Below are positions 22,347 through 39,348 of a DNA stretch of 64,000 bases, piece by piece (the stretch's first letter is position 1; each line of letters opens with the position of its first letter). The stretch is from positions 35,765 to 99,764 of the IMG/VR virus record IMGVR_UViG_3300021375_000013. One strand, given 5' to 3'. A model generated the notes under the pieces. It worked only from the letters and a program-made list of their open reading frames with translations, made no database searches and had not been told where the DNA came from. Source of the DNA: a virus. The position numbers were made by a program, and so were the translations under genes.

Positions 22347-23879
22347 ATGAAAATAGTTATAGCGGGTGGAGGAACTGCTGGTTGGTTATCAGCATTATTC
22401 CTAGCCAAACAAAATCTACATAGAGATAAACCAGCATACGATATCACTTTAATAGAAAGTGAAGATATTCCTATAATCGGAGCTGGTGAAGGTTCAACTG
22501 GAGTACTACAAAAAGTACTTTTATCAACACTAACACAATTAGAAGGATTTGGAGAGCAAGAGTTTTTTCAACATTGTAACACTACATTTAAATTAGGAAT
22601 TGATTGTATTGATTGGAATGGAGTAGGTGATAGATTCTTTGAATCGTTATCTGGAACACAAACTTCATTGTGGCCATTGGATAGAGATTTTACTCTTTGT
22701 TCAAAATATGGAGTAGCTGCAGAATCTAGTCCTAACAAATATCTTTGGGAAAAAAATCTAACACCATTTTTAAAAGCTGAAAGTAGTGATAGTTACGAAA
22801 CTGGATATGCTTATCACTTTGATGCACATAAAGTTGGTGAGTGGTTTAAAAAGATTGCATTAGAAAACGGAATCAAACTTCAAATAGGTACAATAACTGA
22901 TACAAATCTAAATCCTAAAAATGGTGAATTACAAAAAGTAATTTTAAAAGATGGAACTGAAATAGAATCTGATTTTTGGATTGATTGTACTGGATTCAAT
23001 AGAGTATTAAGTAATGCAGTTGGAGCAGAGTGGGTTTCATATTCAGAATACTTACCAATCAATTCAGCATTAGTTTACACACATCAATATGAAGAGAATG
23101 AAGAAATACCAAATGTAACAACTGCTTGGGCAATGCCAAATGGTTGGATGTGGCAAATTCCAACTCAAGAAAGATTAGGATGTGGATATTGTTATTCTGA
23201 TAAGTTTGTATCTGAGGAACAAGCTCTGAAAGAACTACAAGAAGTTACTGGTAGAAAGATAACACCTCTTAGAACTATTAAGTTTGATAGTGGTAGGTTA
23301 AACGAAGTTTGGAAAAAGAATGTACTTTCAATAGGATTATCATCTTCCTTCTTAGAACCATTAGAAGCAACATCGATACATTCATCTATAATTCAGTTAG
23401 TACAATTAACACAACATCACTTATCACCTTACAAAGAGGATATGATGAGAGAATCAAACGTCAAAGCAAATAATGAACACTTTAATATGATGTTAGATGA
23501 ATTTAGAGGTTTGATTCAAATGCACTATATTACAAAAAGAAATGATACTCCATTTTGGAAATATGTACACAATGATTTGAAAAGAGACCCATTGGTTGAA
23601 AGTATTTTAGAAGTATGTAAATGGAGAGTTCCCAATGCTAATGATTTTCCACATTACAATGGTTCAGCTGGTTGGGGTGTGTTTAATTGGATATTAGCAG
23701 GTAATGATTTAATTAGTAAAGAGGTATTAGATAAATCCTTACATACTCATAATTTTGAAAAATCATCTGAACAAATTTATAAACATATGGTAAAACAGTA
23801 TACATTTGATAGTAAACAACACTTTCCACATACTGATTTTATCAAATGGACAAAAGATTTCGCAAAAAATCCAAAATAA
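22347..23879 (+). CDS. Flavin-dependent (tryptophan-type) halogenase
   Basis: The 510-residue protein matches the flavin-dependent halogenase family throughout. GGGTAGW (7-13) binds FAD. The catalytic Lys is Lys82 in CNTTFKLGIDCIDW. YAYHFDAHKVGEWFKK and DFWIDCTGFNRVL are family segments. WMWQIP (267-272) is the WxWxIP signature, and FLEPLEATS contains Glu340, the second catalytic residue. Such enzymes make hypohalous acid from FADH2, O2 and halide and pass it to an electron-rich aromatic group. All key residues are present, so it is probably active. A flavin reductase is not seen nearby and would come from the host. The substrate is unknown; viral halogenases are known from cyanophages. Confidence 0.93.
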   Translation: MKIVIAGGGTAGWLSALFLAKQNLHRDKPAYDITLIESEDIPIIGAGEGSTGVLQKVLLSTLTQLEGFGEQEFFQHCNTTFKLGIDCIDWNGVGDRFFESLSGTQTSLWPLDRDFTLCSKYGVAAESSPNKYLWEKNLTPFLKAESSDSYETGYAYHFDAHKVGEWFKKIALENGIKLQIGTITDTNLNPKNGELQKVILKDGTEIESDFWIDCTGFNRVLSNAVGAEWVSYSEYLPINSALVYTHQYEENEEIPNVTTAWAMPNGWMWQIPTQERLGCGYCYSDKFVSEEQALKELQEVTGRKITPLRTIKFDSGRLNEVWKKNVLSIGLSSSFLEPLEATSIHSSIIQLVQLTQHHLSPYKEDMMRESNVKANNEHFNMMLDEFRGLIQMHYITKRNDTPFWKYVHNDLKRDPLVESILEVCKWRVPNANDFPHYNGSAGWGVFNWILAGNDLISKEVLDKSLHTHNFEKSSEQIYKHMVKQYTFDSKQHFPHTDFIKWTKDFAKNPK

Positions 23880-29158: not shown

Positions 29159-29569
29159 ATGGAAGTTCTTGAGTATCTCAAACATCATGTAAAAACAGAC
29201 ATTGCACCATCTCCTATACATGGAATTGGTACATTTGCACTAACTGATATAAAAGTTGGTGAACCAGTTTTTATGTTATGGCCTAACGAAAGTAGAATTT
29301 ATACTATTGATAGAAATGAGTTTGAAGAACTTCCAAACTATTCAAAAAAAATGATTCTTAAATCATATCTAAACAAACCGGAATATCCTCTTATTTGGTT
29401 TAGATTATTTAAGGATTCTTACTTTAATTTAGCAAATCCGTTAGTTTATACTAACACCGCTGGTGAAGATGGTAACTTTGATTCAATGAAAAGAAAAGCT
29501 ATCAAACCAATTAAAGCAGGGGAAGAAATTTTAGGTAATTATAAATTAGAAGATACACTATTAAAATGA
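29159..29569 (+). CDS. SET-domain protein, probable lysine methyltransferase
   Basis: The 136-residue protein is a minimal SET domain: SPIHGIGTFALTDIKVGEPV at residues 18-37 is the SAM-binding N-terminal motif, and IKPIKAGEEILGNY (115-128) is the C-terminal GEE(L/I)xxxY motif with the catalytic-type Tyr128. The usual NHSxxPN motif is replaced by YTNTAGEDGN, so activity needs testing. SET proteins transfer methyl groups from SAM to lysine. It follows the H1-like gene by 5 nt and overlaps the MazG-like gene by 4 nt (ATGA), so the three are one transcription unit. Confidence 0.8.
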   Translation: MEVLEYLKHHVKTDIAPSPIHGIGTFALTDIKVGEPVFMLWPNESRIYTIDRNEFEELPNYSKKMILKSYLNKPEYPLIWFRLFKDSYFNLANPLVYTNTAGEDGNFDSMKRKAIKPIKAGEEILGNYKLEDTLLK

Positions 29570-33165: not shown

Positions 33166-33369
33166 ATGCCAATACTAAGGGGACAGACTCATCCTTCCGC
33201 AAAATTAACGGATGAGCAAGTTTTAAATATCAGAAAACTATGGAAAATGGGACACCGAAATGTTCGAGTTATGGCTCGTAACAATAAGTGTTCTTCAGCC
33301 AACATCATTAAGATTGTTAAAAATCAAACTTGGACACACTTGAATGAATTTTGGTCTGGTAGTTTATGA
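33166..33369 (+). CDS. Small helix-turn-helix DNA-binding protein
   Basis: The 67-residue protein reads SAKLTDEQVLNIRKLWKMGH ... MARNNKCSSANIIKIVKNQTW, the pattern of the HTH modules found alone or at the end of HNH homing endonucleases (LTDEQVxxIRxLW, then a recognition helix and xxxTW). Here there is no nuclease part, so it may be a regulator or a remnant. It lies 3 nt after thioredoxin and overlaps the Mom-like gene by 4 nt, so it is part of that operon. Confidence 0.65.
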   Translation: MPILRGQTHPSAKLTDEQVLNIRKLWKMGHRNVRVMARNNKCSSANIIKIVKNQTWTHLNEFWSGSL

Positions 33370-34133
33370 AAGAAGAAAAAACATATTGTGATACTTCGAA
33401 ACTTTCCATTCGTCTTATCACAAAATCAGTAGCTAAAGATATCATTGTAAACAACCATTATAGTGGTTTGTGGACAAAGGTATCTTACGCAATTGGTTTG
33501 TTTACTTCAGATGTTGAGGAACATCCCTTCTTTGATAATATAGAAGATAAACTAATTGGAGTAGCTTGTTATGGAGACCCAATTGGTAGAAGTGCTGGGC
33601 AATCGATTTCCCCTTTATTAGAAAGAACCGAAGTTTTAGAACTAACCCGATTATTTGTATTTGATAATTATGGTTCAAATATAGAGAGTTGGTTCTTAGG
33701 TCAAACTTTTGATTGGTTAAGGGAGAATGTACCACAAATCAAAGCACTTATTTCATATTCAGACCCTAAAGAAGGTCATTGTGGTACAATTTACCAAGCA
33801 ACTAATTGGTTGTATCAAGGTAATAAATTAAGATTCAATGATAGTTGGGATTTCAGATGGGAAGAAGGTGGTGAATGGCACCACGGAAGAACTTCCTATG
33901 TAAAATTTGGAACAAATAATCCCAAAGAAATACAAAAAATGACACCATCTACATTTTGGATAAAGAAGAATCCAAGAAAACATAGATATGTGTACATTTT
34001 AACCAAAGGTGGTGAAAGAAGGAAGTTGTTAAAGAATATTAAACACCCAACTTTCCCTTATCCTAAAGAAAATGAAGAATTTGTGGAAGAAATTCATAGA
34101 ATGGACCCAATAAATTTGGAAATTACAAAATAA
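33366..34133 (+). CDS. Mom-like GNAT-fold DNA-modification protein, paralogue 1
   Basis: The 255-residue protein fits the Mom family (GNAT fold): NNHYSGLW near the N-terminus, VLELTRLFVFDNYGSNIESW, and SYSDPKEGHCGTIYQATNWL with YQG after it. In phage Mu, Mom converts adenine to N6-(methylcarbamoyl)adenine and protects phage DNA from restriction. A second copy lies at 34300. Substrate and target cannot be read from sequence. It overlaps the small HTH gene upstream by 4 nt. Confidence 0.7.
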   Translation: MKEEKTYCDTSKLSIRLITKSVAKDIIVNNHYSGLWTKVSYAIGLFTSDVEEHPFFDNIEDKLIGVACYGDPIGRSAGQSISPLLERTEVLELTRLFVFDNYGSNIESWFLGQTFDWLRENVPQIKALISYSDPKEGHCGTIYQATNWLYQGNKLRFNDSWDFRWEEGGEWHHGRTSYVKFGTNNPKEIQKMTPSTFWIKKNPRKHRYVYILTKGGERRKLLKNIKHPTFPYPKENEEFVEEIHRMDPINLEITK

Positions 34134-34146
34134 TTTATTATATTAG
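34115..34146 (+). promoter_or_regulatory. Bacteroidota-type promoter TTTG-N20-TATATTAG
   Basis: TTTG at 34115-34118, inside the end of the first Mom-like gene, and TATATTAG at 34139-34146, 20 nt apart. It is 7 nt before the small gene at 34154. Confidence 0.75.
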
Positions 34147-34153
34147 TAAAATT

Positions 34154-34312
34154 ATGACAGAAGAAAGAGAAATAGAAGAAATTCTAATGGAATCTCACTC
34201 ATTTGGGTTGAGAAACGAAGTGATGAAAACTGCTTCTGAAATTATGGGTAGTAATCCTAAGATAAGAAGAGTAGATGCGTATCACCAAGCTTTTAATGAA
34301 TGGGTAAAGTAG
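34154..34312 (+). CDS. Small acidic helical protein between the two Mom-like genes
   Basis: A 52-residue protein (starts MTEEREIEEILMESHSFGL) with its own promoter, overlapping the next start by 13 nt. The N-terminal half is an acidic amphipathic helix. No family is recognised. The overlap and dedicated promoter support it being translated and linked to the second Mom-like gene. Confidence 0.6.
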   Translation: MTEEREIEEILMESHSFGLRNEVMKTASEIMGSNPKIRRVDAYHQAFNEWVK

Positions 34313-35106
34313 AAGGAAAACATTATTGTGATGCAACTAAGGTGAGTATAGCACCTATTTCTAAATCTATCGCTAAAGATATGATTATTAAGAAACATTA
34401 TACTCATGCTTGGACTATGTGTAGATATGCTTTAGGTATTTACCATCAGATGGAAGAAAACGATATCTTTGGAAACGATAAAAAGTTAATAGGGGTAGCT
34501 GTATATGGATTTCCAGTAGGAGCAAAAGCATCCACTTCAGTTTGTGAAGGCTTAACAAAAGATAATATCTTAGAACTTACTCGTTTATATGTTGATGATG
34601 GTTATGGTTCTAATATAGAGAGTTGTTCATTAGGAAAAACGTTTCAATGGTTAAAGGATAACGATAAAAATATCAAAGTTCTTCTATCTTACGCTAATAA
34701 TGGACAAGGACACTTAGGTGGGATTTACAAAGCAACCAATTGGATTTATCAAGGTTTGAATACCGATATCGCTTTGATGCCAAATTGGGGTATCTCACTA
34801 ACCAAAGAACCTTATGATTGGTTACATAGTAGAACTGTGTTTAATAAATGGGGAAGTGGTAACTTAGAACACCTTAGAAAAGAAATTGGTAAACAAGGTT
34901 ACAAAGAATTTTGGAGAAGAGAAGAACCACCAAAACATAGATACATTCAAATACTATCTCAGAATAAAAAAGAGAAAAAGGATTTGATGAAAAGGTTGAA
35001 GCATGAAATCAAACCTTATCCAAAAGAGTTGAATGATTACAATACTGAAGTGGTACATCATACAACATATGCACCTGAAGAAAGTAACGAAATAAACTTT
35101 TGGTAA
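34300..35106 (+). CDS. Mom-like GNAT-fold DNA-modification protein, paralogue 2
   Basis: The 268-residue paralogue of 33366-34133 shares KHYTHAW, ILELTRLYVDDGYGSNIES, LLSYANNGQGHLGGIYKATN and a C-terminal PPKHRYIQIL. The Asp of the SYxDP motif of copy 1 is Asn here (SYANN), so the two copies may differ in activity or partner. The start is chosen at the ATG overlapping the small upstream gene. Two diverged copies suggest different target sequences, or an active plus a non-catalytic subunit. Confidence 0.7.
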   Translation: MGKVEGKHYCDATKVSIAPISKSIAKDMIIKKHYTHAWTMCRYALGIYHQMEENDIFGNDKKLIGVAVYGFPVGAKASTSVCEGLTKDNILELTRLYVDDGYGSNIESCSLGKTFQWLKDNDKNIKVLLSYANNGQGHLGGIYKATNWIYQGLNTDIALMPNWGISLTKEPYDWLHSRTVFNKWGSGNLEHLRKEIGKQGYKEFWRREEPPKHRYIQILSQNKKEKKDLMKRLKHEIKPYPKELNDYNTEVVHHTTYAPEESNEINFW

Positions 35107-35123: not shown

Positions 35124-35155
35124 TTTGGATAATTAAAAAATTATCATTATATTAG
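35124..35155 (+). promoter_or_regulatory. Bacteroidota-type promoter TTTG-N20-TATATTAG
   Basis: TTTG at 35124-35127 and TATATTAG at 35148-35155, spacer 20 nt. A 10-codon ORF (MFNKAEDEGI, 35161-35193) starts 5 nt downstream, before the true gene at 35229. Confidence 0.8.
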
Positions 35156-37211: not shown

Positions 37212-37541
37212 ATGTTTCATATAAAAGGAGAATTTTACAATAAGATTAGTGAGTGGGTAACATCAAACCCCACTCACTCCTTTTATTTATATTCATCTCA
37301 ACAAACTGATGCTAATTTTTATGATTTTTGTTCAGCAGTTTTGGATAATGATAAAATACCAGTAATCATTACAAATGTTGGTGGGTTTGATAATAGATAT
37401 CCTTTGAATTTGAGACAAGCTATGAATCTATCGGATGAGGTTAGGGTTTACGAATCAGCTAAAATGGGTATGGATTTGGTATTGGAAACCAAAGCTAAAT
37501 TGTTTATAAAAACTAACGGAGGTATTTTATGGATACAATAG
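37212..37541 (+). CDS. Hypothetical protein upstream of glycosyltransferase-like gene
   Basis: A 109-residue protein with aromatic-rich N-terminal half and a segment VIITNVGGFDNRYPLNLRQA. No family is recognised. It overlaps the next gene by 13 nt, suggesting that their products act together. Confidence 0.65.
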   Translation: MFHIKGEFYNKISEWVTSNPTHSFYLYSSQQTDANFYDFCSAVLDNDKIPVIITNVGGFDNRYPLNLRQAMNLSDEVRVYESAKMGMDLVLETKAKLFIKTNGGILWIQ

Positions 37542-38218
37542 TAGTTTATATAGAGAATGAAAATAAACATTTCAATTTGGTAAAATCTTTTGAAATGTTA
37601 AATATAAATCATCATAGATTGTATGAAGGTGGTGAATGGACTGGTATGTTTGAAAAGTTACAAATCTATATAGATGGACTTTCTAAATTAGATAATGAAT
37701 GGGTTATTTTATCCGATTCTCGTGATGTTTTGTTTTATAAAAATATAGATGAAATAAACGAAGTATATAAGACTTATTTTTCGGATAAAGATATAGTTAT
37801 ACAGGGAGAAGATGCAGAAGATGGTGATGTTTACTTTAGAGTAACGAATATGAAACGATATTCTTTTTCAGATACTCTTTACAAATATCCATGTAGTGGA
37901 TTGATTATGGGTAAACGAAAAGTAATTATAGATTTCTTTAAAGAAATTATAGATAAAGTTCCTTCTGAATGGGCAATAGCTGACCAACCAGCGGTTGAAT
38001 GGGGAATGGCAAATTTAGATTACAATATTTCATTGGATACCGAATGTAGATTATTTCAACAAATGGGAATGGGTGATTATAGTGGTGTAAATTTTAATCT
38101 CCATTTTAATAAGAATTTTATAAGAAATACACATACAAATACCGAACCTTGTATCTTTCATGGTGCTGGTGGTACTTTTTTAAATCAGGTTTGGAAAATA
38201 ATAAATAAAAAATATTAA
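37529..38218 (+). CDS. Glycosyltransferase-like protein (PLOD-type GT-A fold)
   Basis: The 229-residue protein has a GT-A-like layout: WVILSDSRDVLFYKN contains a DxD-type metal motif, followed by PCSGLIMGKRKVIIDFF and a late CIFHGAGG segment. This resembles the lysyl-glycosyltransferase (PLOD) group seen in large viruses. It would use an activated sugar; the acceptor is unknown. Its stop overlaps the start of the next gene by one base. Confidence 0.62.
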   Translation: MDTIVVYIENENKHFNLVKSFEMLNINHHRLYEGGEWTGMFEKLQIYIDGLSKLDNEWVILSDSRDVLFYKNIDEINEVYKTYFSDKDIVIQGEDAEDGDVYFRVTNMKRYSFSDTLYKYPCSGLIMGKRKVIIDFFKEIIDKVPSEWAIADQPAVEWGMANLDYNISLDTECRLFQQMGMGDYSGVNFNLHFNKNFIRNTHTNTEPCIFHGAGGTFLNQVWKIINKKY

Positions 38219-39348
38219 TGCGAGTACTAATAATTCCTAATTACACAAATTTCGGCCAGGTAAAGGATATCAACAGAGATTCTTTCCTTCTGGTCTTTAA
38301 ATCATTTTTAGATAATAGTAAAATCGGTAAAGAATGGGAGTGGATTCTACCTTATCCTGGCGGTGGAATGCATAATCATCCTGGTATTATAAATACCTTT
38401 GAATACCCGAATGTAACGATGTTACAAATGGACCCGTTAGACTGTTTTCCAGCAAAAATGAGAGTTGATTATCCTCACAAATTTTTTGAGAAAGTTATTG
38501 AAAAATATGAAGGAAAATTTAATCTCATCTGGAGCCATTTACCTGAGTGGACAAATTTATTTAAGATATCAAGAATCTACAATAAATTACAACCCATAAT
38601 TGGTTATTGTCATTGGAGCGAGATACCTGAAAATGGTGCTAGAACTGATAATTCATTTTGGACAAACATTAGAGGTATTTTACAAATGGAAGTTTGTGGT
38701 GTAAACTCTGAATATCAAAAAAGTGTTATTCTTAAAAACGCAGCTTTAGATTTCAAACCACATATCGTTGAGAAGTTAGATAAGATTATTCAACCTTGGT
38801 ATTTGGGATGTGATACAGCCACTCCTTCAAATGGATATGATGATAAAACAATCGTATTCAATCATAGAGAAGGTGTTTATACTGGTTCTAAGTGGTTCTT
38901 TGAAACTATGGATGAGTTGTGGAAAGAAAGACAGGATTTCAAAGTTTATACTACCTTAAAAGAAATGGGTAAACCTTATACAAAGTATATTGGAGCAGCT
39001 GATAGAAAAGTGTATCTAAATCAATTATCAAAAGCACATTTTGGTGTTGGTACTTTCCAAGGTTATTCAGCTTGGAGTATGAGTACAACTGATGGATTTT
39101 CAGTAGGTGTACCATATTTACTACCAAATGGTTTTTGTTATCCTGAAATGGTAGGTGATGATTATCCACTTCTTTATAATGGTAAGAAAGAATTTAAAGA
39201 AATGGTAATAAAGTTATTAGATGGTGATATTCCAAGACCTGATGTAACTCACCTTGCTCAATCTCTCCTATGGGAATCTCAGATTGAAAAATATTGGAAT
39301 GTGGAAGAAAATTTTATTGGTAACCTAAGAACAAAATTTAACGATTAA
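38218..39348 (+). CDS. Glycosyltransferase-like protein (GT-B fold) in replication region
   Basis: The 376-residue protein looks like a GT-B enzyme: an N-terminal Rossmann-like start MRVLIIPNYTNFGQ, a middle TIVFNHREGVYTGSKWFFE, and a C-terminal donor-side part with VGTFQGYSAWSMSTTDGFSVGVPYL in place of the usual EGFG...E motif. It overlaps the preceding gene by one base and the polymerase gene by one base, so it is coupled to replication genes. T4 glucosylates its DNA, so DNA is one possible acceptor; protein or cell-surface sugars are others. Confidence 0.55.
   Translation: MRVLIIPNYTNFGQVKDINRDSFLLVFKSFLDNSKIGKEWEWILPYPGGGMHNHPGIINTFEYPNVTMLQMDPLDCFPAKMRVDYPHKFFEKVIEKYEGKFNLIWSHLPEWTNLFKISRIYNKLQPIIGYCHWSEIPENGARTDNSFWTNIRGILQMEVCGVNSEYQKSVILKNAALDFKPHIVEKLDKIIQPWYLGCDTATPSNGYDDKTIVFNHREGVYTGSKWFFETMDELWKERQDFKVYTTLKEMGKPYTKYIGAADRKVYLNQLSKAHFGVGTFQGYSAWSMSTTDGFSVGVPYLLPNGFCYPEMVGDDYPLLYNGKKEFKEMVIKLLDGDIPRPDVTHLAQSLLWESQIEKYWNVEENFIGNLRTKFND

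Follow-up and report, generated by a model that had tools for sequence, protein, structure and literature searches.

MomA and MomB, two diverged Mom-family proteins encoded side by side behind a small HTH gene in an uncultured phage, are probably co-expressed adenine N6 enzymes with diverged target preference that protect the phage DNA, their genes forming a cassette in a fixed slot (Table 1). The window analysed here, 64,000 nucleotides long, spans bases 35765 to 99764 of a virus record of 99.8 kb that encodes exactly two Moms, MomA and MomB. In the proposed mechanism the cassette would occupy a fixed genomic slot with ribonucleotide reductase and thioredoxin on one side and DNA polymerase on the other, with MomA and MomB acting as GNAT-fold enzymes that would each put an acyl-CoA-derived group on adenine N6 in phage DNA. 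The two would differ in sequence preference (or in the DNA state on which they act), such that as a pair they would cover a larger number of restriction sites than a single enzyme could. Upstream, the small HTH protein would probably regulate the slot (or help to place the enzymes on DNA), with the 52-aa protein (s52) as an optional accessory. What we infer is the reaction that the two enzymes carry out, how target specificity is split between them, that they protect against restriction, and what the HTH protein and s52 do. All four genes named in a preliminary description of this DNA were recovered where it had placed them, the HTH gene overlapping momA by 4 bp and the 52-aa ORF overlapping momB by 13 bp.

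Table 1. Positions of the cassette genes, promoter-like elements and slot-replacing methyltransferase genes (window positions unless a contig is named)
Feature	Position	Strand	Remarks
Thioredoxin gene (Trx), 87 aa	32899..33162	+	phrog_22, E 2e-13; left border of modification slot
HTH protein, 67 aa	33166..33369	+	HNH/HTH-type profiles; constant partner of cassette
MomA, 255 aa	33366..34133	+	PF25680, 153.9 bits; D133 (= Mu D149) kept
Promoter-like element TTTG-N20-TATATTAG, Bacteroidota-type	34115..34146	+	8 nt 5' of the ATG of the 52-aa ORF
s52, 52-aa protein	34154..34312	+	clade-specific insertion in the MomA-MomB interval
MomB, 268 aa	34300..35106	+	PF25680, 155.1 bits; N133 replaces nearly invariant Asp
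Second promoter-like element TTTG-N20-TATATTAG	35124..35155	+	downstream cassette border, upstream of 659-aa ORF
TTTG-N20-TATATT(T/A)G sites	16309, 23881, 23960, 34115, 35124, 41871, 45594, 54357		
Tandem N6_N4_Mtase genes in place of the Mom pair	L282:675-3066, L303:2251-4633, L433:1876-4273, L435:5163-6234		

The membership of both proteins in the Mom family, proposed in the preliminary description, is well supported, as is their role in DNA modification. PF25680 (profile length 202, curated cutoff 27.1 bits) was matched far above chance by MomA (E 5.6e-45) and MomB (E 2.5e-45), the matches being full-length and covering profile positions 2-202 and 3-202 in the two Moms, and PHROG 1384, 'Mom-like DNA modification protein', was matched with E-values of 8.5e-50 and 4.2e-46, respectively. 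Both proteins are genuine Mom-family members. Mu Mom (PDB 8BV8) was the only solved structure matched by either protein, and profiles from the MomA clade or the MomB clade each match it at E about 1e-44, a whole-domain match from which a GNAT fold is predicted for MomA and MomB. The 8BV8 chain reads NSEARA at the point where wild-type Mu reads NSESRA, indicating that the crystallised Mu Mom is mutated at a Ser which is conserved here without exception (S108 of MomA and of MomB, Mu S124). The core residues Mu H58, Y59, R111, S124, D149, Y159, N163 and H183 are all present in MomA, and MomB keeps every one apart from D149, which is replaced by N133. Nine positions, Mu R111, S124, Y159, N163 and H183 among them, are invariant in MomA and MomB and conserved in more than 90% of other Moms.

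The genes around the cassette keep the order NrdB, MazG, NrdA, Trx, HTH, modification genes, 376-aa ORF and Pol across relatives, with Trx 5' of HTH in most compared loci, including those in which methyltransferases replace Mom. This slot (NrdA-Trx-HTH, modification enzymes, PolA) is filled by MomA with MomB, by a lone MomB or by a set of three N6/N4 DNA methyltransferases. Tandem methyltransferase genes without Mom follow Trx-HTH-s52 in four contigs (L282/L432, L433, L303/L434 and L435) with homologous NrdA-Trx-HTH flanks, the same Pol then following in three of the four. There are three methyltransferase genes where the slot is complete, the L435 contig ending inside the second, and all six that were tested (L282 and L303) gave full N6_N4_Mtase matches with E-values of 1e-43 to 1e-46. 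These N6_N4_Mtase (PF01555) slots have the same flanks and the same HTH and s52 partners as the Mom loci but differ in an unrelated enzyme fold and in methylation as against acyl-type modification. The replacement of Mom by three DNA methyltransferases points to a swappable slot for DNA modification. Of the evidence from gene context it speaks most strongly for DNA as the substrate of the Mom pair, in keeping with the profile matches and with conserved residues that are complete save one. In one relative a DruA-domain protein (L065:4270-5001; PF14236, E 3e-21) lies between the HTH gene and MomA.

The small HTH protein was only weakly recognisable from the window alone (phrog_20467 HNH/HTH, E 2e-4), but its assignment holds at the level of the family (HTH_7, 3e-5; phrog_517 'HTH DNA binding protein', 9e-6). 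Of 92 distinct homologues of the HTH protein, 87 lay directly 5' of a Mom gene, MomA in 79 cases and a lone MomB in eight. The HTH scan was made without using Mom and kept the best 80 of 379 relatives, such that the tight link to Mom applies to the closest homologues. Within this set it is the 67-aa HTH gene upstream that stays constant and not the pairing of Moms; the preliminary description was right to place paired Moms behind an HTH gene but missed this constancy. Distinct layouts were counted in loci with at least 2.8 kb 3' of the HTH gene, giving 69 A-B with a D-type MomB, 12 A-s52-B with an N-type MomB, 10 s52-A-B with D, five MomB alone with D, four MomB alone with N, two A-A'-B with D, two s52 with three methyltransferases and one with none of these genes. 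The MomB-only loci rule out the notion that the pair is obligatory.

The overlap between momA and momB appears in about 40 distinct junctions in which the momB frame opens within momA. In nearly all of these the sole in-frame momB start is a TTG lying 10-25 bases 5' of the end of momA, and the momA Ile codon that supplies it is ATT in 41 of 41 cases, compared with 41% ATT among the other Ile codons of the same genes. This codon usage indicates that the overlap is maintained, as would suit translational coupling. The 52-aa gene, for which the preliminary description had proposed a promoter of its own, interrupts the overlap in the window's clade. Sequence support for this candidate promoter comes from a TTTG-N20-TATATTAG element, one of eight TTTG-N20-TATATT(T/A)G sites in the window that share a fixed 20-nt spacer. 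A looser promoter pattern occurs 13 times on the + strand of the window against 3.5 expected from shuffles; a plain TTATATTAGTA search lacked significance, which was reached only with the -33 element and a fixed 20-nt spacing included. The -7 element of these promoter-like sites matches the -7 box of Bacteroidota sigma-A, TAnnTTTG (PMC9723704), and the recurring sites should be useful to map transcription units.

The distribution of s52 weakens the idea that it is a dedicated Mom partner, since it is absent from most Mom pairs, can sit upstream of MomA, and has relatives adjoining methyltransferase, thyA and dCMP-deaminase-like genes. The genes reading as thymidylate synthase and dCMP deaminase were seen beside s52 relatives in other phages (various contigs in the range L436-L499). 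It is possible that s52 is a small nucleotide-metabolism accessory protein.

Pairing of two Mom lineages side by side is widespread in related phage loci and absent from the cultured phage records searched. A first Mom scan of viral contigs yielded 80 loci, most of which show this gene pair in identical order, and after a second scan two Mom ORFs were present in 125 of 161 viral loci and three in six, compared with more than one Mom in two of 80 cellular loci. The public phage records with a Mom match (179 and 212) each had Mom in one place, with no second. Viral contigs are fragments with many near-duplicates, and the counts given are of distinct sequences where so stated and not of independent events. 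In a tree of 201 sequences MomA and MomB formed separate clades (FastTree local support 0.995 and 0.988), and the single Moms of further relatives (S clade) were sister to MomB (0.993). MomA and MomB are hence two old, separately conserved lineages, and the placement of the S-type single Moms beside MomB alone indicates that the A/B split is older than the present pairing. In the window's clade dN/dS was 0.04-0.08 for both MomA and MomB (Nei-Gojobori), strong purifying selection keeping both versions intact. More distant third Mom paralogues were seen in some relatives, at L060:9034-9669, L062:1637-2260, L068:1031-1651 and L055:5731-6447, a separate short Mom type (about 210 aa) recurring elsewhere in these genomes.

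MomA and MomB are 46% identical over their length and are separated by 20 fixed differences, 13 of which fall within the last ~95 residues and lie clear of the catalytic motifs, in addition to a MomB-specific insertion and C-terminal FW. Such divergence favours two specificities as the better of the two options raised in the preliminary description, the other being an active plus a variant subunit. A wider formulation can be held only tentatively, in which MomA and MomB would together, perhaps as a heteromer, hypermodify adenine with two distinct DNA specificities or two chemistries, the N133 MomB would use an altered catalytic mechanism, and a dedicated HTH protein would control a slot that exchanges entire sets of DNA-modifying enzymes. 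It is rather doubtful that the two Moms install chemically distinct groups drawn from separate acyl donors, or that each has its own kind of target molecule (DNA in different states, RNA or nucleotides). The sequence divergence, the slot beside NrdA, NrdB and Trx, and the thyA and dCMP-deaminase-like neighbours of the s52 family would be in keeping with this, but the catalytic core is common to both Moms, and the DNA methyltransferases found in the same slot argue for finished DNA as the substrate.

The difference at a key position between the motifs SYSDPKEGH of MomA and SYANNGQGH of MomB, pointed out in the preliminary description, is real, the codons reading GAC for D133 in MomA (33762-33764) and AAT for N133 in MomB (34696-34698). 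The Asp of SYxDP, D149 of Mu in the numbering of the 241-residue annotation, is found in 50 of 51 MomA, 8 of 8 single S-clade Moms and 82 of 85 other Moms, and in MomB the position is D in 42 of 56 and N in 14 of 56, including the window. This residue is presumably D139 in the 231-residue numbering of Mu Mom, an Asp which we take to be functionally important. Retention of D by 42 of 56 MomB rules out D133N as the defining mark of the B paralogue, and the low dN/dS rules out N-type MomB as a decaying gene. Every N-type MomB belongs either to an A-s52-B layout or to a locus with no other Mom, the latter including the 100-kb record G043, which may be incomplete.

One of the window's two enzymes might therefore be inactive or altered, as MomB lacks the near-invariant Asp. 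A MomB of the window lineage impaired by D133N and serving as the DNA-binding or stimulatory subunit of a MomA-MomB hetero-oligomer is nonetheless decidedly unlikely. The near invariance of D elsewhere, the presence of N in 12 of 12 distinct A-s52-B layouts and the importance that we attach to Mu D139 would suit it, but MomB retains Ser108 (Mu S124), Tyr143, Arg95 and His33/Tyr34, and in four distinct loci, the 100-kb contig included, an N-type MomB is the only Mom, which disfavours a dead subunit in need of MomA, allowing that contigs may be incomplete. The idea of an active plus a variant subunit is likewise disfavoured by the D-to-N change being confined to 14 of 56 MomB, by N-type MomB without MomA in several phages, and by purifying selection on N-type MomB that is as strong as on MomA. 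A redundant duplication in which two Mom copies just increase dosage is very unlikely. The adjacency of the paralogues, their overlapping genes and the loss of MomA in some loci would suit it, but the clades are old and separate with fixed differences and equal purifying selection, and the S-type Moms as sister to MomB alone place the A/B split before the pairing.

Two diverged Moms with different target preferences, the reading preferred here, depart in several respects from known Mom systems. The product of Mu Mom is N6-methylcarbamoyl adenine (PMC8281217, PMC7824862). The com-mom operon of Mu (PDB 8BV8; N6-methylcarbamoyl/carbamoylmethyl adenine) shares with the cassette a Mom of the same PF25680/PHROG 1384 family with conserved core residues, and a single-gene-length Mom enzyme that follows a small overlapping regulatory-type gene. 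The cassette differs from Mu in having two diverged Moms and not one, in its location in the early DNA-metabolism slot of a T4-like myovirus as opposed to the late end of a transposing phage, and in its upstream protein, which is of HTH type with one Cys and no zinc-finger Cys pairs, whereas Com is a zinc finger translational activator overlapping mom. Jumbo phages carry Mom proteins fused to REase-fold domains (PMC7824862); both occur in large tailed phages, but here the Moms are unfused tandem paralogues, with no REase-fold domain and the Mom domain alone above the Pfam cutoff in MomA and MomB. The closest Mom of a cultured phage, from Polaribacter phage P12002L (AKG94227), is 44-45% identical to MomA and MomB and likewise lies beside a DNA methylase gene, but P12002L is a different type of phage with a 48.7-kb genome, a single Mom and no adjacent HTH/s52 cassette annotated.

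The gene set of the phage (sheath, tail tube, T4-type baseplate, UvsX, DnaB and Pol) places it among T4-like myoviruses. With promoters of Bacteroidota type and a Polaribacter phage as the nearest isolate relative for Mom, the host phylum of this group of uncultured phages is probably Bacteroidota. The window also contains a tryptophan halogenase-like gene (22347-23879; phrog_2928, E 2e-106) and a small protein with a marginal SET-domain match (29159-29569; PF00856, E 1e-4) that is conserved 5' of MazG-NrdB in close relatives. Two more genes occupy the interval from the Mom pair to the DNA polymerase, a PLOD-type glycosyltransferase gene (37529-38218; PF25342, E 4e-11) and the conserved 376-aa ORF (38218-39348), glycosyltransferase-like in appearance with no Pfam match; the substrate of their products could be DNA or something else.

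To our knowledge, phage Mu has supplied essentially the only Mom enzyme whose chemistry has been studied. The paired diverged Moms, the natural D/N variants and the MomB-only phages offer a series for probing the role of the Asp and target specificity, and the same series lets one ask if a single phage writes two adenine marks. The fixed slot in which methyltransferases stand in for Mom is a place to seek new phage DNA modifications.
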